From Burkholderia metallica (GTDB lineage: Bacteria; Pseudomonadota; Gammaproteobacteria; Burkholderiales; Burkholderiaceae): a stretch of 64,000 bases of DNA. A program made the translations under genes and the position numbers. The notes beneath the pieces were generated by a model that saw only the letters and a program-made list of their open reading frames with translations, searched no databases and was not told where the DNA came from. Shown here one piece after another: positions 7,627 through 36,556 of the stretch. How positions within the stretch are numbered: position 1 is the first letter of the stretch; every line of letters starts with the position of its first letter. The stretch is from NCBI RefSeq assembly GCF_902832845.1, contig NZ_CADFDB010000002.1:558001-622000 (forward strand), written 5' to 3'.

Positions 7627-8778
<1,152 letters not shown>

Positions 8779-11667: not shown

Positions 11668-11982
11668 GATACGTGCTCCTGATGCGATGCGTAAAAAGGG
11701 GGACTCACGCGGCGCCATCGGAAGCCGCGCGGGTCGTGCGTACCGCGACCGCGCATGCAGCGTGCGCGGCCAGCGAGCAGATTACAGCGGTTTGGCGAAG
11801 CGCGTCGGGACCGGTGGCGGCGCGTCGCATGCGTGCGTCGCGCATCATCCTTCGGCGACCGGCAACGAACGGCGCGGGGTTCGCCGCCCGAACGGAAGTC
11901 GATACCACCGCACATGTCCTCACGGAACGGAACGCGGTTCGCGGCCAGCTCGCCTGGAATACGCCCCGGCCGTTCGCGGCTT

Positions 11983-11998
11983 CCCATAAACGGCATCC
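11983..11998 (+). repeat. Distant iteron-like site, one mismatch
   Basis: CCCATAAACGGCATCC differs by one base from the origin iteron CCCATAAACGGCAACC at 34534. It is about 22 kb from the iteron array. It could bind RepA or be chance. Confidence 0.4.
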
Positions 11999-12172
11999 AT
12001 TACCTCGCCCATCGCCCTGCAACGAACAGCGAGTGATGGGCTTTTCGGGTATCGGGACGGCGTCGCGATTGCGCGTGGTCGTGCACGGACATCGTCGCGC
12101 GCTCCCCGCTCGCCGAATCCGGTCACCCCGCTTCGGCGCGCGATCGTCGTCCGCTGCCGCTTCGCCGTCGAT

Positions 12173-12191
12173 TGTTGTCTCCAGGACAACA
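12173..12191. promoter_or_regulatory. Palindromic operator-like element upstream of the MBL gene
   Basis: TGTTGTC and GACAACA form perfect 7-bp arms around TCCAG, 165 bp upstream of the metallo-beta-lactamase-fold gene. The shape suits a dimeric repressor. No regulator gene adjoins it, so the binding protein is unknown. Confidence 0.4.
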
Positions 12192-12356
12192 TCATGTGCG
12201 CCCGTGCAGCGCTACTGGCGCGCGCCGCCGCTACCTACAATCGTCCACACGCTCGATCGACAGACGAGCGAAACGCGGTGCACGACACCTGACGTCGCAC
12301 TCGCCAACCGCGCTGCGCTGCGCGGCTTACCCACTCGATGAACAGGACATTTCAAC

Positions 12357-17715: not shown

Positions 17716-18711
17716 GTGAAAAAAACCTGGCTCTCGGCAGGGCAAATCCTGCTCACCCTGATCGTCGTCGTCGTGGCCGCCATCGTGCTGTGGCGCATCG
17801 TCAACTACTACATGTTCTCGCCGTGGACCCGCGACGGTCACGTGCGCGCCGACGTGATCCAGGTCGCGCCGGACGTGGCGGGCCTCATCACGTCGGTGCA
17901 GGTCGTCGACAACCAGGAGGTCAGGCGCGGCCAGGTGCTGTTCGTGATCGACCAGGCGCGCTACGCGCTCGCGGAACGGCTCGCCGAAGCCACGCTCGCG
18001 CAGCGCCGCGCGACGCTCGCCCAGGCGAAGCGCGAATACGCGCGCAACCTGCAGCTCGGCAACCTGGTCGCGAGCGAACAGGTCGAGGAAAGCCGCACGC
18101 GCGTCGAACAGGGCGAAGCCGCCGTCGCCGACGCGCAGGTGTCGCTCGACACCGCGAAGCTGAACCTGCAGCGCACGACCATCGTCAGCCCCGTAGACGG
18201 CTACCTGAACGACCGCGCGCCGCGCGTCGGCGAATACGTGCCGGCCGGCCGCGCGGTGCTGTCGGTCGTCGACCGCAACTCGTTCCGCGTCGACGGCTAC
18301 TTCGAGGAAACCAAGCTGCGCGGCATCCACATCGGCCAGCCGGTGGACATCATCGTGATGGGCGAGCCGCATGCGCTGCGCGGCCACGTGCAGAGCATCG
18401 TCGCCGCGATCGAGGATCGCGACCGCACGCAGGGCGCGAACCTGCTGCCGAACGTGAACCCGGCGTTCAGCTGGGTGCGGCTCGCGCAGCGCGTGCCGGT
18501 GCGCGTCGTGCTCGACGAGGTGCCGGACGATTTCCGGATGATCGCGGGCCGCACCGCGACCGTGTCGATGCGCGACGCCGACACGCGCCGCAACGACAAC
18601 GCGAAGCCGACGGCCGGCGCGTCGGCAGCTGCCGCCGGCACCGCGTCGGCCGTCACGCCGGTAGCGACGGCTTCCGGCACGGCCGCCGGCGCGGCAGGAG
18701 CATCGCAATGA
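17716..18711 (+). CDS. HlyD-family periplasmic adaptor (AaeA-like)
   Basis: This 331-residue membrane-fusion protein has one N-terminal membrane anchor (about 8-28), a lipoyl-like barrel (DVAGLITSVQVVDNQEVRRG) and a short coiled-coil hairpin (about 80-145). A second lipoyl half follows at SPVDGYLNDRAPRVGEYV. It would bridge the FUSC pump and the TolC-like protein. The start is a GTG, placed 1 bp after the DUF1656 stop. The last 40 residues are Ala/Thr-rich low complexity. The stop overlaps the next gene by 4 bp. Confidence 0.88.
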   Translation: MKKTWLSAGQILLTLIVVVVAAIVLWRIVNYYMFSPWTRDGHVRADVIQVAPDVAGLITSVQVVDNQEVRRGQVLFVIDQARYALAERLAEATLAQRRATLAQAKREYARNLQLGNLVASEQVEESRTRVEQGEAAVADAQVSLDTAKLNLQRTTIVSPVDGYLNDRAPRVGEYVPAGRAVLSVVDRNSFRVDGYFEETKLRGIHIGQPVDIIVMGEPHALRGHVQSIVAAIEDRDRTQGANLLPNVNPAFSWVRLAQRVPVRVVLDEVPDDFRMIAGRTATVSMRDADTRRNDNAKPTAGASAAAAGTASAVTPVATASGTAAGAAGASQ

Positions 18712-20273
18712 GCCGGCACGCCCCGCGCGTCGCCGCGCCGCTCGCGTCGCTCACGTCACTTGCCCCGCTTGCACTTGCGCTCGCGCTCGGCGCGTGCAAA
18801 TCCGTCGGCCCCGACTACACGCTGCCGCAGCAGGCGTACGTGAATGCGCCGCTCGCGAACCATGCGCTCGACGACGCGAACGCCACGCTCGTGTCGCGCG
18901 ACGTCGTGCCCGGCAACTGGTGGCAGCTCTACGACGACCCCGTGCTCAACGCGCTCGTGCGCGACGCACTGAAGTCGAACACCGACCTGCGCGTCGCCGC
19001 GGCCAACCTCGCGCGCTCGCGCGCGGCGCTGGAAGTCGCGAGCCGGCAGGGCGGCTTCTCGGGCGGCGCGGAAGCCGCGGTGCAGCGCGCGCAGGAATCG
19101 GCCGAGCAATACCTGCTCGAGAACAAGCTGCCGGTCGTCAACGAAGGCTCGGTCGGCATCAACGTGTCGTACGAGATCGACCTGTTCGGCAAGCTGCGGC
19201 GCGGCGTCGAAGCCGCGCGCGCGGACAGCGAGGCCGTCCGCGCGGCCGGCGACCTGGCGCGCATCACGGTCGTCGCCGATGTCGTGCGCGCGTACGTCGA
19301 ATCGTGTTCGGCCGGCGACGAGCTGGCTGTCGCGAAGCAGTCGCTCGCGCTGCAGCAGCAGCGCGTGAAACTGTCGCAGCGGCTGCGCGACGCGGGACGC
19401 GGCAACCAGACCGACGTGACGCGCGGCGTGACGCAGGTGCGTACGTTGTCCGCCGACATCCCGCGCTTCGAAGGCCGCCGCAAGGTCGCGCAATACCAGC
19501 TTGCCGCGCTGCTCGCGCGCTCGCCGGCCGATCTGCCGAAGGCCGTCACCGAATGCGAGCGCCTGCCGAAGCTGCGCCAGCCGATTCCGATCGGCGACGG
19601 CGCCGCGCTGCTGCGCCGTCGGCCCGACGTGCGTGCCGCCGAGCGGCAGCTCGCCGCGGCGACCGCGCGCATCGGCGTGGCAACCGCCGCGCTGTACCCG
19701 TCGATCAGCATCGGCGCGTCGGCCGGCTCGGTCGGCGTCGCCGCCGACCTGTTCTCGTCCACGACGAATCGCTGGTCGTTCGGCCCGCTGATCAGCTGGT
19801 CGTTCCCGGTCAACGGCCAGCGTGCACGCGTGCGCGAAGCCGAAGCGGCGACGGGCGGCGCGCTCGCGCACTTCGACGGCGTCGTGCTGAACGCGCTGCG
19901 CGAGACGCAGTCGAGCCTCGCGACCTATGCGGCCGACGTGCAGCGCACGGAAGCGCTGCGCACGGCCTACGAATCGGCCCGCAGTTCCGCCGACGAAACG
20001 CATCGTCTCTATCGGGCCGGCCGCGAATCGTTCATCTCCGATCTCGACGCGACGCGCACGCTCACCGGCGTGCAGGCGCAGGTGGCGGCTGCCGAAGGGC
20101 AGGTCGCGGCCGACCAGGTGCGGCTCTTTCTCGCGCTCGGCGGCGGGTGGGAGGACGATGCGGCGCCCGAGGCGGCGAAGTCGACGCCGTTGCCGATGTC
20201 GCAGCCGATGTCGCAGCAGGCGCCGGCAAGCGGTGCGTCGGCGGCCTCGGCCGCAGTTGATGCAGCCGAGTAA
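18708..20273 (+). CDS. Outer-membrane efflux lipoprotein, NodT/RND-OMF family
   Basis: This 521-residue protein has a lipoprotein signal peptide with lipobox ALALGACKS and the start of the mature protein VGPDYTLPQQAYV, typical of NodT-like outer-membrane factors. The two repeats with long helices and strands follow (for example VSYEIDLFGKLRRGVEAARA). It should form the exit duct of the FUSC-HlyD pump. The C-terminal 50 residues are Pro/Ser/Ala-rich and include a short duplicated PMSQ motif. It is last in the operon. Confidence 0.9.
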   Translation: MSRHAPRVAAPLASLTSLAPLALALALGACKSVGPDYTLPQQAYVNAPLANHALDDANATLVSRDVVPGNWWQLYDDPVLNALVRDALKSNTDLRVAAANLARSRAALEVASRQGGFSGGAEAAVQRAQESAEQYLLENKLPVVNEGSVGINVSYEIDLFGKLRRGVEAARADSEAVRAAGDLARITVVADVVRAYVESCSAGDELAVAKQSLALQQQRVKLSQRLRDAGRGNQTDVTRGVTQVRTLSADIPRFEGRRKVAQYQLAALLARSPADLPKAVTECERLPKLRQPIPIGDGAALLRRRPDVRAAERQLAAATARIGVATAALYPSISIGASAGSVGVAADLFSSTTNRWSFGPLISWSFPVNGQRARVREAEAATGGALAHFDGVVLNALRETQSSLATYAADVQRTEALRTAYESARSSADETHRLYRAGRESFISDLDATRTLTGVQAQVAAAEGQVAADQVRLFLALGGGWEDDAAPEAAKSTPLPMSQPMSQQAPASGASAASAAVDAAE

Positions 20274-21105: not shown

Positions 21106-21696
21106 ATGACAACCGCGTCCGATCAGACGCGACAACGGGCACTGCAAGCGCTGCTGTCCGCGGCGGCCGACGCCGACACGCCCGATGCGCGGCTGTTCGG
21201 CGCACTCGTTGCGGCACGCGCGCACCGCAACGAACTCGGGCTGCTCGGCCTGTCTCATGCGCAACTGGCCGGCCTGCTGGCGCGGCACTTTCCGCGCCTG
21301 CCTGCGGCCGACGCCGCGGCACTCGCGCCGACGGCCGCGATGGCCCTGCTGTCATCCCCGCATGCGACGTTCGTCGCGACGCTGCACGCGCGGCTGATGA
21401 ACGACGCGCATCCCGCTGCCGACCATGACGACGCCGACTGTCTCGCGTCGATCATCGCGCACGCGTGTCTGCGCCCCGATCATCTGTGGCGCGATCTCGG
21501 GCTCGACGGGCGCGACGCGGTATCCGCGATGCTCGACCGCTATTTCCCCGCGCTCGCCGCGCGTAACGTCGCTCAGTTGCGCTGGAAAAAATTTCTCGCG
21601 CAGGAAGTGGCCGCTTCGCTCGGTGTGCCGCCCGGACCTGCGCCCGGGTGTCCGGGTTGTGAAGATTTCGGCTTCTGTTTTCCTCACGCACGATAG
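21106..21696 (+). CDS. nifQ: NifQ-like molybdenum-handling protein
   Basis: This 196-residue protein resembles NifQ throughout (DDADCLASIIAHACLRPDHL, LRWKKFLAQEVAASLGVPP) and ends with the metal site CPGCEDFGFC (Cys 182, 185, 191). In diazotrophs NifQ carries an Fe-Mo-S cluster and donates Mo to FeMo-cofactor assembly; its motif is Cx4Cx2Cx5C. Here the first cysteine of that motif is absent (Gly at about 177). No other nif gene is in the window. It lies behind the di-Mop gene and probably serves general molybdenum homeostasis. Confidence 0.75.
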   Translation: MTTASDQTRQRALQALLSAAADADTPDARLFGALVAARAHRNELGLLGLSHAQLAGLLARHFPRLPAADAAALAPTAAMALLSSPHATFVATLHARLMNDAHPAADHDDADCLASIIAHACLRPDHLWRDLGLDGRDAVSAMLDRYFPALAARNVAQLRWKKFLAQEVAASLGVPPGPAPGCPGCEDFGFCFPHAR

Positions 21697-21737
21697 TCGC
21701 CACGGCGGTACTGCTGCCCGCGCGATTCAGCGCACAC

Positions 21738-21753
21738 CCCATAAACGGTTACC
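21738..21753 (+). repeat. Isolated perfect iteron, 12 kb from the origin
   Basis: CCCATAAACGGTTACC is a perfect fit to the consensus of the origin iterons. It is in the 91-bp gap between the convergent nifQ-like and DMT-exporter genes, about 12.3 kb from repA. Confidence 0.7.
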
Positions 21754-21787
21754 TTGTGTGCCGTCTTGCCCACCGTCACCGATGCGG

Positions 21788-22849
21788 TCAATGCCGGTGC
21801 CGGTGATGAATGTCCGGAAAATGCGCATGGCTGTGCGTGATCGGCAAATGCACGTGCGGATGCGAGTGCGGTTCGCGGCCGTCGTACGCAAAGTCATGCG
21901 CATGCTGGTGATGTTCATCATGCCGATGCCAATGCGTGTGTTCGAGCCGCTCGTGCGTATGCGTATGTTCATGCCGTTCGCGAACGTGCAGCCAGATGCC
22001 GAGTGCCATCAGCGCGGCCGCGGTCCAGAACGTTGCGGGCGGCAGCGCGGGCCAGATCAGCAGCGACAGCACGACGCCGAACAGCGGCGCGATCGAGAAA
22101 TACGCGCCCGTGCGGGCGCTGCCGAGATGGCGCAGCGCGACGACGAACAGCACGAGGCTGATTCCGTAGCCGCCGAGCCCCGTCAGCATCGCGGCGGCCG
22201 TGACCGGCGCGGCCGGCAGCGTCGCGCCGTTCGCCAGCGCGATGCCGATATTCACGGGGCCGGCGATCAGCCCCTTCACGCACGCGATGACCATCGCATC
22301 GTTCGCGGCTACCTTGCGGGTCAGGTTGTTGTCGATCGCCCAGCACAGGCAGGCGCCGGCGATCAGCAATGCGCCGACCGGCACGCCGGCCCGACCGGGC
22401 GTCCACGACAGCAACGTGCCGCCGGCGACGATCGCGACCATCCCGACGAACACCTGCGTATCGACGTTCTCGCGAAACACGACCCATGCGATGACGGCCG
22501 TCAGCACGCCTTCGAGATTGAGCATCAACGCGCTCGTCGCCGCGGGCGTGCTCGATAGCCCGAGCATCAGCAACGCCGGGCCGGCCACCCCGCCCGCCGC
22601 GATCGCACCGGCCAGCCACGGCAGATCGGCGCGCTGCAGCGGCGCGGCGCCCGCGGCCGATGTACGTCCGTCGTGCAGGCGGCGAAGCAGGATCCCGATA
22701 CCAAGCCCGACGCCGCTGCCGAGATAGAACAGGCCTGCGACCATGAACGGCGACATCGCGCCGATCAGCGCCTTCGCGAGCGGTGTCGCGGCGCCGAACA
22801 GCGCGGCGGCGGTGAGCGCGACGAGAATCGCGGAATGTCTCGTGTGCAT
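21788..22849 (-). CDS. DMT/EamA-family exporter with histidine-rich cytoplasmic tail
   Basis: This 353-residue protein has about ten membrane segments in two EamA repeats (about 8-145 and 155-285). The last about 65 residues form an unusual tail with many histidines (HEHTHTHERLEHTHWHRHDE and further HxH motifs). EamA proteins are drug/metabolite exporters; a His-rich tail suggests binding of Zn, Ni or Co and possibly a metal or metal-complex substrate. It is convergent with the NifQ-like gene. No metal regulator adjoins. Family sure, substrate unknown. Confidence 0.85.
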   Translation of the reverse strand: MHTRHSAILVALTAAALFGAATPLAKALIGAMSPFMVAGLFYLGSGVGLGIGILLRRLHDGRTSAAGAAPLQRADLPWLAGAIAAGGVAGPALLMLGLSSTPAATSALMLNLEGVLTAVIAWVVFRENVDTQVFVGMVAIVAGGTLLSWTPGRAGVPVGALLIAGACLCWAIDNNLTRKVAANDAMVIACVKGLIAGPVNIGIALANGATLPAAPVTAAAMLTGLGGYGISLVLFVVALRHLGSARTGAYFSIAPLFGVVLSLLIWPALPPATFWTAAALMALGIWLHVRERHEHTHTHERLEHTHWHRHDEHHQHAHDFAYDGREPHSHPHVHLPITHSHAHFPDIHHRHRH

Positions 22850-23351
22850 GATCCGGTTTGAATGGAAGTTGAAAGGGGCAAGCCCGTGCTTCGGGTGGTG
22901 TCGCCGTTGATTTGCCGGGCTGTTCGAAATGCGGGCAGCAACGCTTCGGCCGATTTTCAGGCAACCCGACGACTCCGTCGGGATTATCGACCGTCATCAT
23001 GTCACGACACCGGGCGCGAGCGCTCGCACGCCGGTCGATGCGTGCCGGTATGTTCTTGTTTTAGGAAACCGAATTAATTGATCGAAGCGTTGCCGCATTC
23101 GCGGCATGCATACCGTCCATGCGCAAACGACGCAGTCGAAACATCGCGCATGCAGCGTCGATCGGCGAACGTTCTTCGTCCGGTCGCAGGGTCTGTTCGG
23201 GGCGGGACAGGTAAAGGCCGGGCACGTCGTGTCGTGCCGGTGAGAACAGCGCTGACCCGCGTGTGTCGACGCAGGTCAGCCTGTCGTGTATTCGCCGCAT
23301 GCGAAGCGCGTGCGGATCAGCGCCGTGCGTGATGCAGCGGCGCGGGCCGGG
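22850..23351. other. Gene-free region
   Basis: About 500 bp with only short frames that resemble nothing. It separates the DMT exporter start from the ProQ gene stop, so it holds the exporter promoter; I see no clear -35/-10 pair or terminator. Confidence 0.4.
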
Positions 23352-24026
23352 TTACTCGTTTCCGGCCGTTTGCTGCTCGACCTGCGGCGCTGCGTCGGCT
23401 TGCGCGTCCACGTTCGCCGGTTGCGGTTCGGCCGCGGCGTCCGCCTGCTGCTCGACCTTCGGCGCCTGCTGCGCGCCCTTCGCCGATTGCGCCGCACCCT
23501 TGCCGGGGCGGCGAGCCTTCAGCCGGCGCGCCCGAGCCGCGTCGTCGTGCGTGACGCGACCTGCTTCGTTGCCCTGCAGATCGACCCGCACCGCGTCTTC
23601 GACGAGGCACGACCAGTAGCGGTTGCCGCGGCACCACGTCGACATCGCGTCGCGCAGTTCGGCTTCGTTGAGCCCGATGGCCTCGGCTTCACGTGCGAGG
23701 TCGTCCCAGATGCCGACCTTGAGCGGCACTTTGGGGGCCGGATTCTTCGGGAACGCACGCGGAAACTTGCGCTGCAGTTTGCCGATCGCAACGATGACCG
23801 GATCGACCGGCGCCGACGGTTTCGCCGAAGCGGGTTTGGCCGAAGCCGGCTTCCCGCGGTGCGGTGCTTTGGCGTCGGCAGCCGGCTTGGCGCCACGCTG
23901 CGGCCGGTCGCCGGACTTCGGCTTCGCGCCGGTGTCCGCCGGCGCTGCCGGCCGCTTCGCATTGCGCTCCTGCTTGGCCTTCGCGGCGAGCTGCGCCCGC
24001 AATTCGGCAAGTTGTTCAAAACCCAT
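23352..24026 (-). CDS. ProQ/FinO-domain RNA chaperone
   Basis: This 224-residue protein has a basic, Lys/Pro/Ala-rich N-terminal linker (about 10-75), a ProQ/FinO domain (about 76-160, with LQRKFPRAFPKNPAPKVPLK and MSTWCRGNRYWSCL) and a low-complexity Ala/Gln tail. ProQ proteins bind structured sRNAs and mRNA 3' ends. I chose the ATG at 24026, which has GGTGG about 9 nt upstream; the next ATG upstream (24173) adds residues outside the family. Confidence 0.88.
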   Translation of the reverse strand: MGFEQLAELRAQLAAKAKQERNAKRPAAPADTGAKPKSGDRPQRGAKPAADAKAPHRGKPASAKPASAKPSAPVDPVIVAIGKLQRKFPRAFPKNPAPKVPLKVGIWDDLAREAEAIGLNEAELRDAMSTWCRGNRYWSCLVEDAVRVDLQGNEAGRVTHDDAARARRLKARRPGKGAAQSAKGAQQAPKVEQQADAAAEPQPANVDAQADAAPQVEQQTAGNE

Positions 24027-29519: not shown

Positions 29520-29535
29520 GTTGTCACGTGACAAC
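29520..29535. repeat. parS: parS site 1
   Basis: Perfect 16-bp palindrome GTTGTCACGTGACAAC, 1.4 kb upstream of parA. This is the centromere type I recall for the third replicon of the cepacia complex. Confidence 0.9.
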
Positions 29536-29690
29536 TCGCGCGCGGATCGTCGACGCGGATCATCGACGCGGATCATCGAATCGGAGACTCGGCGGCGTGC
29601 CGCAAGGCGGGTGGTCTTGGTAGTTTGGGCTCTGCCAGCGCCAGGCACGACGAATACGTTCTAAATACTACATATCACGTATTAAATGAC

Positions 29691-29707
29691 ACAATTCCGG
29701 GAATTGT
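29691..29707. repeat. 17-bp palindrome ACAATTCC-G-GGAATTGT
   Basis: Perfect inverted repeat of 8-bp arms between parS sites 1 and 2. A partial second copy (ACAATTCCCGGAATCG) is at 30621-30636. Binding protein unknown. Confidence 0.5.
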
Positions 29708-30262
29708 CACTCCGGTTTTTGGACATGGTGCCGGAAATGATCATACGCCCCTATTTATGGGGCCGATCTCGATCGTTTGGCGTGAAACAACATGAAGAAT
29801 ATGGCGCAACCCATTGCTGGACAAGGATTTCCGTCAAGACGTCATTTTTCGAAAATGTTTCACGATCCGGCCCGATTGACGTGTCACACGGCCTTCAGGG
29901 CTGAAATTTGTCGCATATTTGACTCGCAGACGGAGTTCAGACACGGGCCTTTGAGGCACCGGCCGTAATGGCGGGCACGTGTAACAAAACCGCTCCCCTC
30001 CCCTCCTAGTCAACATAGAACGAAGTGGATGCGAATGCGTGTCGTTAATTGGGGACATATCATACCCCGCAGACATTTCGCCGTGGAGTTCAACGTATTG
30101 GCCTGCGCCTCCCAGCTGGATCATGAAGACGACGGGCGGCAAGAAGCGCCTCTGGGATTGCCGACTCATTGACGCGCTCGAATCCTCAACAGAGATGCGC
30201 ACCGACTCGACACGCGGCCTAACGTGTCACTTCGACACCCCATTACCCTCTGGATCGCCCCG

Positions 30263-30278
30263 GTTGTCACGTGACAAC
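30263..30278. repeat. parS: parS site 2
   Basis: Perfect GTTGTCACGTGACAAC palindrome. Confidence 0.9.
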
Positions 30279-30427
30279 GCATCACTCGACCGACTCGGAT
30301 AGGCGCATTACGCAACGTATCAACGACTGCAAATGACGTCACTGCAGTCGATCAGCTCATCGCCATCCGAGTTCGATCGTGACAGCGCTAAAAAGACTCC
30401 GTGCCGAAGCCACCTCCACCCGATTCG

Positions 30428-30443
30428 ATTGTCACGTGACAAC
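30428..30443. repeat. parS: parS site 3
   Basis: ATTGTCACGTGACAAC, one base off the perfect palindrome at its first position. Confidence 0.85.
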
Positions 30444-30577
30444 TCGCCTTACTGACGGCGGCTGGATCTATCCAATGCCTAAGGCGAGCATCTAAACGAT
30501 CTCGTCATATCCGTGACCCGCATTGAGACGACGATTTCCTGACGATGGATAGCCCTGAGGGGATCGAACTCTTGTCG

Positions 30578-30593
30578 CTTGTCACGTGACAAC
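30578..30593. repeat. parS: parS site 4
   Basis: CTTGTCACGTGACAAC, one base off at its first position. Confidence 0.85.
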
Positions 30594-30826
30594 TACGTTT
30601 TCCTCGGCAGCTCCCGAAACACAATTCCCGGAATCGCGACGAGCCTCGTCAAGAACGATACGCAGAATCAAAAGCCGCAACCCTATGTGCGAATACTCAA
30701 TCGCCGCTGCCGCCCCTCGGATTTTGTCTCTAGATTTTTGTTGATGTTTTCAATCGTCTAGCGTCGTCGCAAATTTTATTTTTACTCAGCGACTAACCAT
30801 GGCTGGAGAACTAGCCATTCAGCCAA

Positions 30827-30842
30827 CTTGTCACGTGACAAC
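30827..30842. repeat. parS: parS site 5, nearest to parA
   Basis: CTTGTCACGTGACAAC, 108 bp before the parA start. Its position suggests ParB bound here could also affect parAB transcription. Confidence 0.85.
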
Positions 30843-30949: not shown

Positions 30950-31648
30950 ATGGCTTTCAAGATCGCCGTCAGTAATCAAAAAGGTGGGACTGGAAAGACA
31001 ACCATCTCCGTCAACATCGCTGCCGCGTTCGAAGCGGGCGGCAACAAGGTCGCGCTGATCGATGCCGACCCTCAAGGCACATCCGTCCGATGGGTGACGA
31101 GCGGCGAGAACACGCTGCCGATGACGGTCCTCTCGCTGGCCCCTGCCGGTCGCGGCATCGGCGGCGAGATCAAGAAGCAGGACGCGAACTTCGACGTGAT
31201 CGTCGTCGACTGTCCCGGCAACCTCGAGGATCCGCGTATCGCATCGGTACTCGAAGTCGCCGATTTCTGCCTCGTGCCGCTGTCGCCGTCGCCGGCCGAT
31301 CTCTACAGCACCGTCGCGATGATCCGGATGATCGAGTCGATGCGATCTGTCCGTAACCCCAATCTTTCTTCTGCATTAATGCTGAATAGCGTTAATGGAA
31401 AAACTAAAATGCGTGAAGAAATTTTAAAAATTCTAAGAGCAGAAGAAATAGGGGAGCATCTGCTCGACAGCCAGATCGCGCAACGCGAGGTCTACCGTCA
31501 GACGTTTGCGCTCGGCACCACGATCCATCATCACAATCGATACCTGAAGGGCCTGAAAGAAGCCCGTGCGGAAATCGAAAAGCTGGTCACGGAAATGGCC
31601 CAATACATCGCGTCGACGCGCGCTACAGGAGCCGCCGCCCATGGCTAA
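30950..31648 (+). CDS. parA: ParA partition ATPase of the replicon
   Basis: This 232-residue ATPase has the deviant Walker A KGGTGKTT (11-18), ALIDADPQGT, and the Walker B VIVVDCPGNL. It lacks an N-terminal helix-turn-helix, so it is a short ParA and probably does not repress its own operon directly. It segregates replicon copies together with ParB on parS. GGAGG lies 6 nt before the ATG. It overlaps parB by 8 bp. Codons 138-167 (31361-31450) are only 28% GC, unlike the rest of the gene. Confidence 0.93.
   Translation: MAFKIAVSNQKGGTGKTTISVNIAAAFEAGGNKVALIDADPQGTSVRWVTSGENTLPMTVLSLAPAGRGIGGEIKKQDANFDVIVVDCPGNLEDPRIASVLEVADFCLVPLSPSPADLYSTVAMIRMIESMRSVRNPNLSSALMLNSVNGKTKMREEILKILRAEEIGEHLLDSQIAQREVYRQTFALGTTIHHHNRYLKGLKEARAEIEKLVTEMAQYIASTRATGAAAHG
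31361..31450 (+). other. AT-rich patch inside parA
   Basis: I counted 25 G/C in 90 bases (28%), against well over 55% on either side. The reading frame stays intact. It includes the near-palindrome GAAATTTTAAAAATTC at 31418-31433. The cause is unknown: a recombined segment or an embedded DNA element. Confidence 0.7.
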
Positions 31649-32672
31649 GGACACCTCGAAAGACAAGAAGCCGACCGGCAACCTGCATCTCGCAGCCGGC
31701 CTGCTGCGCGGACTCGCGCAGGAAAATGCCGCCCTCGAAACGCGGCTGCCCGAACCTGCGGCCGCACCCGATGTCGTCGGCGAAACGGCGCCCACGAACG
31801 TTCCGTCCGCGGCCACATCCGCCGCCTCGCAGGATCTCGGCGCGCCGCAGAAGGTGCAGGTCAAGGATTGCATCCCGAACCCGTTCAACCCGCGCGTCTT
31901 CTACTCGGAATCGAGCCTGCACGAGCTCGCGCTGACGCTGAAACGGGAAGGGCAGATCGAGCCGATCAAGGTGACGCGGCTTCCGGAGTTTCCGGGCAAG
32001 CTCGTGGTGATCGACGGTCAGCGCCGGCTCCGCGCGACGAGCATCAACGGCGACGAAACCATCAACGCCACGTTCCGTACGGATCACACGCCCGAACAGC
32101 TCTATACGATCGCGTATCGCGCGAACCACGACCACGAACGCCAGACGATCTTCGACGACGCGGTCGCGTGGAAGCGTCTACTCGACGAGAAAGTCTTTTC
32201 CGACCAGAACACGCTGGCGGAGAAGATCGGCAAGGACAAGGCATCGATCAGCAAGACGCTGTCGCTCAATGCTCTCCCGAACACGCTGCTGGAACGGATG
32301 GCGAGCGCGAGCGACGTGGTCGGCCTGCAGGCGGCGTACTTCCTGAAGCTGATCTTCGAACGCCTGGGCGAGCCGACGGCCGACCGGTTGCTCACGGCCG
32401 TGATCGACCGGAAAAAATCGGTTCGCGATCTCGAGAATTTCCTGCGCGCGCAAAGCGACGGCAGCAAGAAAGCGGGGCGCACGCGTTACAGCGTTCGGCA
32501 CGACTTCGCGCTCGAATCGCGTGCGATCGGTCAGTTGAAGACCTATCCGGACGGACGTGTGGATCTTCAGCTCAAGGGCGTCGACGCATCGCACCAGGAG
32601 GCGCTCGCCGACAAGCTCAAGACCGTCATCGATGCATACGTTGCCGAACTGGCAACGACCACGCAGCAGTAA
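31641..32672 (+). CDS. parB: ParB centromere-binding protein
   Basis: This 343-residue protein has a flexible N-terminal region (1-70), a ParB/Srx N-terminal domain with the CTP-binding-type box VIDGQRRLRA (about 123-132), and the central helix-turn-helix for parS (NTLAEKIGKDKASISKTLSL). It would load on the five parS sites upstream of parA and stimulate the ParA ATPase. The ATG at 31641 lies inside the parA end (8-bp overlap), so the two are one operon. It is convergent with repA. Confidence 0.93.
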   Translation: MAKDTSKDKKPTGNLHLAAGLLRGLAQENAALETRLPEPAAAPDVVGETAPTNVPSAATSAASQDLGAPQKVQVKDCIPNPFNPRVFYSESSLHELALTLKREGQIEPIKVTRLPEFPGKLVVIDGQRRLRATSINGDETINATFRTDHTPEQLYTIAYRANHDHERQTIFDDAVAWKRLLDEKVFSDQNTLAEKIGKDKASISKTLSLNALPNTLLERMASASDVVGLQAAYFLKLIFERLGEPTADRLLTAVIDRKKSVRDLENFLRAQSDGSKKAGRTRYSVRHDFALESRAIGQLKTYPDGRVDLQLKGVDASHQEALADKLKTVIDAYVAELATTTQQ

Positions 32673-32784: not shown

Positions 32785-34101
32785 TCAGTTGCCTGCGAGG
32801 CTGCTCTTCAGCAGGAATTCCAGCAGGTCGTCCGAAGTCGGCTCGCCCCACGTATCCAGTGCGAGCCACCGGAAGAAGCTGGTCTGCGCGAGCTTGCTCG
32901 CCTTCTTCTTCGGCGACAGCGTCAAATCCTTCGAGCCTGCCACGGTCTCGTTGTAACGCTCGATCAGCTTGGTCTGGTCGTCGATCTCCAGTTCGCGGAA
33001 ATACGCGCCGGCTTCCTCGACCTTCGCCGCCAGGTATTTGTCGCGAATCTGCTCCTGCTTGCTCTGCGCGGATTCCTTCGCCGGCGCGACCGTCTCCGTT
33101 CCCTGCCCGTCCGCCAGCGTGTAGCCGTGCGTCAGCGCCTTGCGGAAATAGGCGGCCACGTTGTCGATCGGCGCCGCATTCTTCTTCGTAGTCCGATTGA
33201 GCGTATAGGCGATCGCCGCCTTGATGCGCTGCACGCCGTATTGCGTGATCAGCCGGCGCGCCTCCGAACGCGGAATGCCGAACTTGGCGACCTCGTCGAC
33301 GAGCGCCTCGTTCTTGACGTCGCCATCTTCCACCGTGTCGGTGCTCTGCTTGCGCGTCACCTTGAACTGGACGGCTTCCACGCTCCGGCCGGCCTTGTGT
33401 TCGATCAGCTCGAGCGTGTGATCCGATACTTCGTTCACCTCCTGAATGCACGGCACCAGGACCTTGCTCTTGAACAGCTTGTATTCCTTGTACGACTGCG
33501 ACGCCTTGTCCTGGCCGAGAATGAGGTCGCGAAATTTCGGCAGCGGGATCTTCGCGGTGATGCCGATCCCCTCATAGCGCACCGTGTTCTCCCACAACGC
33601 GAGCGAGTGCGACCGCCGGAACTCGCGGGCGATCCGCATATCGATCAGTGCGTAGATTTCGGGGTTGAGCAACTCGCTGCGAATCTGGTCGGAGAAGCTG
33701 TACTTCAGCACCGACTGCTCGAGCTCCGCGCCCGCGAGCAGGCCGGACGCTTTCCAGACCGTCGATCGATCCGCGGCCAGATAGTCCCAGTTGACGACGG
33801 TACTGATCAGCGAGTTGACCGTGTCCTTCACGTACTTCGTGTTGTTGCTGTTCAACCCGCTCTCGTGCGAAAGCGACGCGAGCGAAATCGAGAAGCTCGT
33901 GCGGCCCGGCTCGAACGCCTCCTGCCGAAGCGCGTTCTTGATCAGCGAGCTGAACATCTTGCGCTGCTGCAGACCGATCTTTCCGGACTTGGGCGCGATA
34001 TGAATCGCCTGCACCGCCTTGCGCAGCAAGTCGGGCGGCTCGGGAGTCTGAAACAGCGAAACCTGTTTGTCGGAGCCTTTGCTTGCGGGCTTGCGCGGCA
34101 T
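32785..34101 (-). CDS. repA: RepA replication initiator, Rep_3/RepB-like
   Basis: This 438-residue protein matches the plasmid-type iteron-binding initiators found at the secondary replicons of Burkholderia. It includes IGLQQRKMFSSLIKNALRQE and KYSFSDQIRSELLNPEIYA (winged-helix regions) and IPLPKFRDLILGQDKASQSY. It should bind the iterons upstream of its own start and open the origin. It is convergent with parB, and the iteron array begins about 150 bp upstream of its start codon. Confidence 0.9.
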   Translation of the reverse strand: MPRKPASKGSDKQVSLFQTPEPPDLLRKAVQAIHIAPKSGKIGLQQRKMFSSLIKNALRQEAFEPGRTSFSISLASLSHESGLNSNNTKYVKDTVNSLISTVVNWDYLAADRSTVWKASGLLAGAELEQSVLKYSFSDQIRSELLNPEIYALIDMRIAREFRRSHSLALWENTVRYEGIGITAKIPLPKFRDLILGQDKASQSYKEYKLFKSKVLVPCIQEVNEVSDHTLELIEHKAGRSVEAVQFKVTRKQSTDTVEDGDVKNEALVDEVAKFGIPRSEARRLITQYGVQRIKAAIAYTLNRTTKKNAAPIDNVAAYFRKALTHGYTLADGQGTETVAPAKESAQSKQEQIRDKYLAAKVEEAGAYFRELEIDDQTKLIERYNETVAGSKDLTLSPKKKASKLAQTSFFRWLALDTWGEPTSDDLLEFLLKSSLAGN

Positions 34102-34131: not shown

Positions 34132-34833
34132 GAGCGGACTTTATACCTTTTCGTGCCAACGGGCAACGTCCCTGTTCCCGCGTTACTTGCACTATCAGAG
34201 CTAAGCTCCGGATACGAAAGGAAAAATCATGTTCAGACAATCTGCTCGGCGTCCCATACCCGTCTACCTTTCCGCCAAAATGCTTCCCACAAGCCGCTAC
34301 CTTTCATACTCGGACACGGAAACCCGGCACGAGATTTGCCCCCGGCAAGGTAACCGTCCATGGGAGGCAATCGGGCAAAACGGAGCGTGTCGGGCGCATT
34401 CATGGTGCCGTGCAGCACAGCGGCTTTTCGTCCCATAACCGGCTACCTTCGACGACTCCCACAGGTGGGTACCTGTCGACCGGATTCGACGATGGCGCGC
34501 CTGTCGATTTTGGCCTAGGAGGGAGATATCGCTCCCATAAACGGCAACCAATCGGTTTCCCCATAAAAGGTTACCTGTCCGTGCCGTCGATCCTGTTTAT
34601 GGGAGCCGGCCATGGGATGTCTTCGCGGTATGCGTTCACCCGCTGCAAATGCTCCCCATAACCGGGTACCTTTGATGCGCCCCATAAATGGCTACCAGAA
34701 GAATATCCCTGTGCTCCTCAGCATCCAGCGATCAAAAAAACGCCTCCCATAAAAGGCTACCTACAGGGGTTCCCATAGATGGCTACCCGACGCTTTTCCA
34801 GGCCGATTTCCCATAACCGGGTACGCTTGCCCC

Positions 34834-34886
34834 ATATCCACAACCCCAACTCCCCACAGCGCGGTACCCCAAACCCCAAATCCACA
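34834..34886. promoter_or_regulatory. DnaA-box-like sequences in the origin
   Basis: ATATCCACA (34834-34842) and AAATCCACA (34878-34886) differ by one and two bases from the DnaA box TTATCCACA. They sit between iterons, where host DnaA would be expected. Confidence 0.4.
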
Positions 34887-34950
34887 GACCTTAAGCCCCA
34901 AATCCTTCCACCTGTGCTCCCATAAATGGGTACCGAACGCCTGTCAAACC

Positions 34951-35030
34951 CTTATCAGATAAGGCTGTGAGCCGTCTAAAGGTAGTTAAAGAAGTAAACG
35001 TTGTTTACAAAAGATGTAAACACACGTGTG
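34951..35030. other. AT-rich repeat-containing stretch, candidate unwinding element
   Basis: This part of the origin holds CTTATC-A-GATAAG (34951-34963), GTAAAC-GTT-GTTTAC (34994-35008), another GTAAAC near 35016, and the palindrome CACACGTGTG (35021-35030). It is AT-rich compared with its surroundings and lies at the repA-distal side of the main array. The role in strand opening is inference. Confidence 0.45.
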
Positions 35031-35275
35031 CTTCCACAGAAAGACGAACCCCATAAACCGCTACCAATGGGAGCCGTCTATGGTGAGGTCAGCGTCTCAG
35101 CGCATCGATTCAGGCCTGAAAGCAGGGCGCTCGCCCAGCGTTTACCAACGGCTCCAGGCCCGACAAGGGTCTCGAAGAAGGTGAGCACCTACTCACATCG
35201 ACTCGAAACGTAGAAACCTATGGGAGAAAAACGGGAAGAAATGCCCATTTCACGTTACAGGTTCCCGTCTATGGG

Positions 35276-36556
35276 ATCGAAAATCCCGCTCCATCACCTC
35301 GCGAGCACCTGCTATCGACCGGCAAAAACCGAGCGACGCCCGGAAACGCAGATCTCCGTGGTCTCGTTCACAGCAGTCTGAAATCATCCGCGACTGCCCG
35401 TGAAGGGTTTTTTGCACTCAGGCTTCCGCTGTCTGTGGACATGTTTTTCCGATGGCTTGCTCCGCGTGCTACTCGTCAAATTTAGCCTGCAGCCTGTGCA
35501 CAGAAGAAATCGCCGCGGCTGACTCACCGCCCAGGACCTTCCAACTTTCTACCTTTGGCGTAACGAACGGACGATCAATGCTGTGCCTCCCGATGGCAAG
35601 GAGAGGTCCAGGGCGGGCTTTCCGGAAATGAACCGGCCCCCCGGAGCCATTTGCATACGTCGCCCGCTCCTGGGTCGATCTGGTGCGCGACGCGAACCAA
35701 CGTGAGGAGGTACGCGACCGCAAAGCTCACCGCCATCGAATTCGAGAGACGATCCCGAACATTCTCACCTTCCGGCATTTCCGGTCCCCGTAAAAGCTCA
35801 CCGACCCGACGCGGCCACAGGTATCGGCATGCTGTGCGGCTTGAGACACGCGCCAGGGAGCCCGGCAGCCCAAGCCTCGAAATGAAAAATCTGTGATGCG
35901 CGAGCGTCGCGTGACGCGTCCCCGAGCCAAATCGGACGGATCACAAACGTTGCCGCGCGATCGCAATCCGACGTGCCACGATTTCCAGACGAGCGCGGCG
36001 ACATGGGATTCTGTTCTGTTCGCATACTCGTGATGAGATTCCGGTCGATATCCTCACCGCACGCAACACGTCCACGCTTTTCGTCTTACGAACCGTGCGA
36101 CGCCAACTCTTCCCCACGCAGGTGACCCGCCGCATCACAGCCCAACGATTGGTTGCCGGATCGCATGTTGCGCGCTGTGACGATGCAATCACGTTTGTGT
36201 TGATTGCCGTGGAACCGAATCGTGGTCGTTTATGGGAGGAACCGTCGCTCGAACTGCAGCAACGGACAACATGATTCACAGGTCGACTGCTTTTGCCTCC
36301 GTCGCAATGAGTCGGATGAGGGGCGCACGATCCGCCGACACCCAACACACGGTTTCCGTTTCGCCAGTGACGCGCGAGCGGCATCCCCGGTTTCTCCCAT
36401 ACGTGTATCCCCAACGCCATTGCCACGTTGACGCCACATTTTTCACGGCGCGGTTATGATGCACAGGTCCCGAACGCGGCATGACACCCGGTCGGGGCAG
36501 GGGCGGTATTTCGATGGTTGTTCAATCCGTGATAAACCAGAAAAGAGAGTTCAGCG
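35276..36556. other. Gene-free region beyond the origin
   Basis: About 1.3 kb with no frame I recognise on either strand. A degenerate reverse iteron (CGTGGTCGTTTATGGG) is at 36221-36236. Small frames of 70-160 codons overlap each other and look like noise. Confidence 0.5.

Follow-up and report, generated by a model that had tools for sequence, protein, structure and literature searches.

Why does a single iteron lie by itself between two convergent genes, more than 12 kb from the origin where such iterons belong? The word at position 21738 of the DNA analysed here raises this question. The window, that is, the whole analysed stretch of 64,000 nucleotides from Burkholderia metallica (G000:C2:558001-622000), comes from an assembly of 7.55 Mb in 37 contigs. 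It carries the origin region of the Burkholderia cepacia complex c3 replicon, with parS-like sites, parA, parB, repA and an iteron array (Table 1). The gene for the Rep_3 initiator (32785-34101), the cognate initiator expected of a c3 iteron, is on the same replicon as the 21738 box, and the same RepA is encoded by seven named plasmid records (94.5-98.6% identity). The parS-like sites were found in the window with a motif that we take to be that of c3.

Table 1. Features of the window that bear on the lone box at 21738
Feature	Position	Strand	Basis or remark
Remote iteron, class Ia, CCCATAAACGGTTACC	21738..21753	+	27.4 bits on c3 origin matrix; single, 12.7 kb from main iteron array
Extended footprint, consensus over species CCCATAAACGGTYACCTTGCGA	21738..21759	+	anchored column profile, 39 genomes; changes per column on 37-tip tree
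nifQ, convergent neighbour of 21738 box	21106..21696	+	Pfam NifQ, 1.9e-33
EamA-family (DMT) transporter gene, convergent neighbour; anchor and tree gene	21788..22849	-	Pfam EamA, 1.5e-21
Second isolated box, class Ib, CCCATAAACGGCATCC	11983..11998	+	about 22.4 kb from main array, adjoining hairpin; exact in 11 of 65 genomes
Five c3 parS-like sites	29520..30842 (29520, 30263, 30428, 30578, 30827)	.	motif matches, 0.2 expected
parA of c3	30950..31648	+	Pfam AAA_31/CbiA
parB of c3	31644..32672	+	Pfam ParB_N, HTH_ParB
repA, Rep_3-family c3 initiator	32785..34101	-	Pfam Rep3_N and Rep3_C
c3 origin iteron array, several boxes paired at 26 bp	34253..35275	.	pattern and matrix matches
c2-type iteron ATCCCGAACATTCTCACCT in c3 origin region	35752..35770	+	2 mismatches to c2 word; 702 bp past last forward c3 box
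Second c2-type box CCCCGTAAAAGCTCACCG	35786..35803	+	same phase as relatives

The box was scored on a matrix built from 172 boxes of 21 c3 origins (20 fetched ones and that of the window). These boxes were gathered with CCCATNNNNGGNNNCC, hence its letters are fixed in the matrix by construction. Origin boxes have a median score of 25.8 bits and 95% of them reach at least 20.6; the only match of the reversed matrix in the window to exceed 8 bits scored 8.4. The original prediction that the word matches the origin iterons at their fixed positions was confirmed: at 27.4 bits it is a full match to the matrix, on a par with the better origin iterons. It also fits the published c3 consensus tCCCATAAacggntACCtnt, which, as given in a legend of PMC4948915, agrees with the origin boxes of the window. 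The strict pattern CCCATRNNNGGNWACC has 13 matches in the whole assembly, namely ten in the origin, the 21738 site, one on contig C13 and one on contig C19. A chance match had been called very unlikely, and 17 window matches with up to three mismatches, against 0.05 expected from dinucleotide shuffles, bear this out.

The setting of the box is also as first described. It stands alone between the convergent nifQ and EamA-family genes, and the distance of about 12 kb to the origin proved to be 12.7 kb from the main array. The locus consists of one box rather than the several boxes of a titration locus. On that side of the origin the next matches above 10 bits are at 18190, 3.5 kb away, and then at 11983; the 18190 match is in frame inside an HlyD-family gene and was dropped. 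A further window match was seen at 8774. The reported one-mismatch copy at 11983-11998 is real, with one mismatch to the degenerate pattern and three to the 21738 site, while the degenerate copies placed near 36221 are not supported, as nothing there exceeds 8 bits. A parS-like palindrome (resembling GTTGTCACGTGACAAC) is absent from 21738, all five matches in the window being within the parS cluster. Neither an intrinsic terminator (a GC-rich hairpin with a T run) nor a promoter was found at the site when 21500-23400 was scanned, and no Rfam family reached its gathering score there, the weak matches to mir-933 and Xoo5 being far beneath it. A hairpin suggested by adjoining GCACAC and GTGTGC in the window was rejected because it is absent from the aligned relatives.

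Conservation of the site was examined by seeking the intergenic stretch in 65 genomes of the genus, in fetched pieces that span only a kilobase or two. A close homologue of the transporter (82-100% identity) was present in 47 genomes, and 39 of these keep the box with up to three mismatches, always starting 44-71 nt past the transporter stop codon. The box is thus outside the origin and conserved in place, as expected of an extra-origin titration locus. Its absence from close relatives with conserved flanking genes, which had been named as evidence against a function, was checked and was not seen: nifQ was in the fetched locus in 31 of the 47 genomes, and all 31 keep the box. Where nifQ was not in the fetched piece, 8 of 16 keep it. 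In two B. pyrrocinia records an extra gene lies between nifQ and the site, yet the box is retained. The rows compared were picked by likeness to the box, which favours box columns and raises the contrast between box and flanks, and therefore a blind search for 16-mers was also done over the 160 nt past the transporter stop of the 47 genomes. With up to two mismatches, its top word was this box (38 of 47 genomes), and the best 16-mer not overlapping the box reached 18.

Changes per column were counted on a tree of the transporter gene with 37 of the 39 box-bearing genomes, G026 and G041 being dropped for short coverage of the gene. The site had 1.38 changes per column, against 10.21 in the left flank and 10.15 in the right flank, counts that are inflated by indels since flank columns were compared ungapped. 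The transporter gene itself had 2.80 at third and 0.44 at second codon positions. The 13 fixed columns of the box had four changes in total, and the whole box of 16 columns had 22, including columns 9, 12 and 13, which vary at origins as well. Since 363 of 632 stretches of 16 columns in the transporter gene have 22 changes or fewer (median 20), the box has the conservation of a coding sequence and is remarkable only by comparison with its non-coding flanks. The extended footprint has a sharp left edge at 21738 and fades rightward, the window copy ending in TTGTGT. In G003, apart from coding matches, a 23-bp island is identical to window positions 21734-21756. Each reading frame across the site falls short of 40 codons in four or more of the 39 genomes; together with the diverged flanks, this disfavours a coding cause of the conservation. 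The exact word CCCATAAACGGYYACC occurs at 48 places in 39 of the 65 genomes and its reverse at one. By coordinates, 27 of these places are at the transporter, 17 are in origin arrays and four are elsewhere or unplaced (G000:C19, G042, G047 and G052). The exact boxes without an assigned place are at G042:C61, G052:C2 and G047:C145:16718. These comparisons make it well supported that the 21738 word is kept for a purpose by purifying selection.

The conservation of the box is tied to c3-type loci. Beside more distant homologues of the transporter (74.6-78.4% identity), none of eight fetched stretches has the box with up to two mismatches. Five of these eight come from genomes that lack the c3 parS word (G021, G035, G038, G040 and G042), the one in G011 is a second copy on another contig (C4), and those in G024 and G052 are unplaced. 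Among the 47 genomes with the close homologue, eight lack the box at the transporter. In one species group a box is found at another near-origin place instead: G010, G059 and G062 each carry one box on the transporter side, some 8 kb from the origin, and in B. stagnalis (W05), which also lacks the transporter box, a single box at about 8 kb lies just past a gene annotated as an NAD(P)H-dependent oxidoreductase. These four boxes have the opposite orientation relative to the array. In G020 a decayed box of 13.2 bits remains at the former place. Scans of G022, G034 and G048 over 18.9-19.7 kb to that side of their origins gave no box above 10 bits, nor did 19.7 kb beside the transporter of G047, whose origin was not located. 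In G034, with a transporter 91% identical, nifQ is absent as well as the box. Three multivorans-type replicons (W06, CP020399 and G023) have neither transporter nor box; therefore the box is not essential. In a Paraburkholderia sp. D15 plasmid, the one record examined at that distance (RepA 74% identical), no lone box with up to three mismatches was found in the 41 kb examined, and its boxes are all within 1.3 kb of repA.

The remote sites differ from origin boxes in their right half. T12 is found in 32 of 39 remote sites against 29 of 172 origin boxes, and C13 in 19 of 39 against none of 172; T17 and T18 are present in 38 and 37 remote sites, respectively. The form GGTCACC scores 18.8 bits, beneath 95% of origin boxes. 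Species-wide, the remote sites do not make the same base choices at the variable positions as the origin boxes do. The window copy, with T12 and T13, is inside the range of origin boxes and is therefore classed as an iteron; the set over all species is classed as a variant. This departure in the right half is the main sequence evidence against a plain iteron label for that set. T12, C13 and T17 are the bases of the c2 iteron, both in the c2 boxes found here and in the word given in PMC4948915; therefore the drift of the remote sites heads toward the c2 word.

The c2 boxes themselves deserve attention. Using the published c2 word, we located a c2 array at C10:15.9-17.2 kb, with genes for a Rep_3 protein and ParB next to it. 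Further c2 boxes, single or in twos, lie 2-12 kb to one side of it (C10:4095, 6675, 9452 and 14296), and a second set of 12 boxes (up to four mismatches, period about 23 bp) is at C10:149291-152813, about 135 kb away. According to the S1 Table legend of Du et al. 2016 (PMC4948915), B. cenocepacia J2315 has another c2 cluster at a distance of 140 kb, and other iteron-like repeats occur throughout the genome. Exact c2 boxes were found in all 65 genomes with none in the reversed control, and among the matches listed (G001-G018) a lone exact c2 box lies 8.9-10.1 kb from the c2 array in 11 of 18 genomes. The strict c3 pattern has no match on C10. The c2 replicon is laid out similarly to c3, with some boxes close to its origin and others at least 130 kb off, and this parallel counts in favour of the explanation of the c3 box preferred below.

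The c3 origin region also contains c2-type boxes. In 29 of 35 c3 origins (the window and 34 relatives, among which some named records and other genomes may be the same species), a c2-type box lies 571-709 bp past the last forward c3 box; it is absent from that place in W06, G064, G037, G063, G023 and G029. The columns of the second box, +34 to +50, played no part in the selection; their conservation is 0.69-0.93, and that of columns +51 to +90 at most 0.72. Across the first 20 loci, 166 kb in all, the reversed c2 word has no match. Single c2-type boxes were also noticed off the c3 origin, on contigs that are or seem to be c3 (G000:C19:780, G008:C3:176392 and G012:C3:772960). The putative c2-type boxes in the c3 origin hint at control across replicons.

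Other c3-like boxes lie away from the c3 origin. The 11983 box occurs exactly at 12 places in its 11 genomes, with none in the reversed control, and in nine relatives where it shares a contig with the origin the two are about 24-38 kb apart, the box being to that side of the origin where the transporter box lies. The hairpin that follows it (12000-12045, recognised by eye) is kept with the box in relatives though the left flank differs. Another 20 stretches, 362 kb in total and one of them just 340 bases long, come from genomes that lack the exact 11983 word; six of them have variant boxes with the same hairpin. An open reading frame at 11673-12341 covers this box; a coding origin was rejected, as the frame has no Pfam match and the exact box stands beside unlike left flanks in the 11 genomes. 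A pair of boxes at C2:438698 and 438938 was dropped because the first can be translated (PITDY) within a stretch that looks coding, and, of its look-alikes in other records, one in W06 falls inside a polymerase gene.

Outside the origin array, 35 of 65 genomes have boxes in tandem that repeat every 26 bp, as the origin pairs do, but mostly have Y at position 14. The reversed control gave none throughout, and all 35 belong to the 53 genomes in which the c3 parS word occurs. In the 13 of them with four contigs or fewer, the arrays are on the contig of the origin. Twenty-three such loci were inspected, G000:C13:47786-47827 among them; their period is exactly 26 bp, and Y mostly replaces A at position 14. 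In the three annotated records examined, an AraC-family gene ends beside the array. An isolated parS-like word was studied in 20 regions, which were fetched since it had already been seen there; judged by coordinates, 14 of them have it across the origin, and a c3 box lies 328-400 bp from it in five (G000, G001, G008, G011 and W02). On C19 of G000, a contig that seems to be c3, the parS-like word GTTGTCACGTAACAAC is at 18649 and the c3 iteron CCCATAAACGGCTACC is 394 bp on, at 19044; this pairing recurs in G001, G008 and G011, and in W02 at 328 bp. In many of the 20 regions the isolated parS-like word is preceded by TATATAAA.

Rep proteins that bind iterons control copy number through titration and through the bridging of iteron sets. 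It is plausible, at about even chances, that 21738-21753 is a single-iteron RepA site outside the origin, held by purifying selection, that damps re-initiation of c3 by titration or handcuffing. Two parts of this reading differ in strength. Binding of RepA at 21738 is quite probable from the sequence, and a negative-control role has roughly equal odds of being right or wrong. A titrating, handcuffing or timing role had been proposed originally, and we, too, infer it. Being 12.7 kb from the origin, the box would be copied soon after firing and would early provide a second site that holds RepA. This timing would make it well placed as a sink for RepA or a partner in handcuffing at the moment when re-initiation must be prevented; in passages of PMC4948915, the forks of c1 and c2 are stated to move at about 33 kb per minute. 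The box may take up RepA, and RepA on it may pair with the origin array, so that early re-initiation would become less likely. It may act jointly with the 11983 box, 22.4 kb from the array, and with the small tandem arrays elsewhere on c3, and its position at convergent gene ends may spare bound RepA from transcription. As it is one box against about a dozen at the origin, it can do little titration alone and therefore can only tune.

Several other explanations have to be weighed against a damping RepA site. A relic or chance copy without function is highly improbable. The box was lost in 8 of 47 genomes, and off-origin iteron-like repeats are noted in that same legend (PMC4948915), but the fixed columns barely changed while the flanks turned over and the exact word outnumbers its reverse by 48 places to one in 65 genomes, so the relic reading is strongly disfavoured. 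It is unlikely, though less so, that the box is read by another protein or is a hybrid site for the c3 and c2 initiators. The departures from the c3 origin boxes at positions 12, 13, 17 and 18 do run toward c2, and c2-type boxes do occur in the c3 origin. However, the left half of the box is purely of c3 type, and the C13 form is not fixed, C and T having switched on the tree with eight changes.

The position of the box between gene ends suggests a protein-bound roadblock that parts two convergent transcripts, a reading to which we give a low probability, somewhat below that of a hybrid site. The start 44-71 nt past the transporter stop in 39 of 39 genomes, the similar place just past a gene end in B. 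stagnalis and the strong hairpin adjoining the 11983 class are all consistent with it. On the other hand, distant transporter homologues manage without the box (0 of 8), the box persists despite an extra gene in the interval, and gene ends may simply spare a bound initiator from the sweep of transcription. A site for segregation or folding of c3, where bound RepA would anchor or bridge the origin domain, jointly with the parS cluster and the isolated parS-like site on the opposite side, is about as unlikely as a hybrid site. In its favour are the 14 of 20 regions with that word across the origin and the five with a c3 box near it; yet 15 of the 20 words have no c3 box at 328-400 bp, no parS lies beside the nifQ-side 21738 site, and RepA is not known to take part in segregation.

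A RepA site that damps re-initiation of c3, which we prefer, has counterparts in known systems. Control iterons such as incA of P1 are Rep iterons beyond the minimal origin that cut copy number by titration and handcuffing. The c3 box resembles them in being a Rep-protein iteron off the minimal origin; those, however, are clustered arrays near rep, whereas the c3 site is one box 12.7 kb off. The parallel with Vibrio drawn in the original prediction is a fair one. According to passages of PMC6090056, PMC11711613 and PMC3937223, six extra RctB sites spread over about 74 kb, about 40 kb from ori2, lower the origin copy number in trans, though the loss of one of the strongest of them alone gave no growth phenotype. 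As portrayed in those passages, they are, like the c3 box, initiator boxes of a plasmid-derived chromosome that lie off the origin on the same replicon and are copied early. They differ in being several, in using RctB and another box, and in that binding and an effect on copy number were shown there, whereas the c3 box is known by sequence.

The second c2 cluster of B. cenocepacia J2315, as far as the legend in PMC4948915 describes it, is likewise a case of remote initiator repeats on a secondary replicon of Burkholderia, while the c3 site is single and has another box on another replicon. E. coli datA is similarly a locus near the origin but outside it that binds the initiator, a binding that is putative for the c3 box; unlike the latter, it has DnaA sites and promotes hydrolysis of DnaA-ATP, according to the same Vibrio passages (PMC6090056, PMC11711613 and PMC3937223). 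Vibrio crtS, as outlined in passages of those papers, resembles the c3 box as a short remote site read by the initiator of a secondary chromosome, reading being putative for c3. It differs in lying on another chromosome and in not being iteron-like, and matters here only for the c2-type pair in the c3 origin region. The passages of PMC4948915 that we used make no mention of remote c3 sites. Nor was a treatment of remote c3 iterons or of c2-type boxes at the c3 origin found in titles, beginnings of abstracts and passages of the literature.

A wider reading, which we regard as rather unlikely, is that the Rep_3 replicons of Burkholderia would be wired together through initiator boxes, with the c2 initiator gating the firing of c3 and the lone c3 site serving as a shared read-out of the duplication of the c3 origin. 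Its basis is the lone boxes about 10 kb from both the c2 and the c3 origin, the distant arrays, the conserved c2-type pair and the right half of the remote box that leans toward c2. If true, this wiring would be a molecular basis for the reported order of segregation, c1, c2 and then p1/c3. The control that limits replication to one round per cycle in bacteria with several chromosomes has been worked out mainly in Vibrio. The 21738 site, the kindred c2 boxes and the c2-type boxes in the c3 origin offer small, exact targets for the study of titration, handcuffing and control across replicons in a genome with three large replicons.
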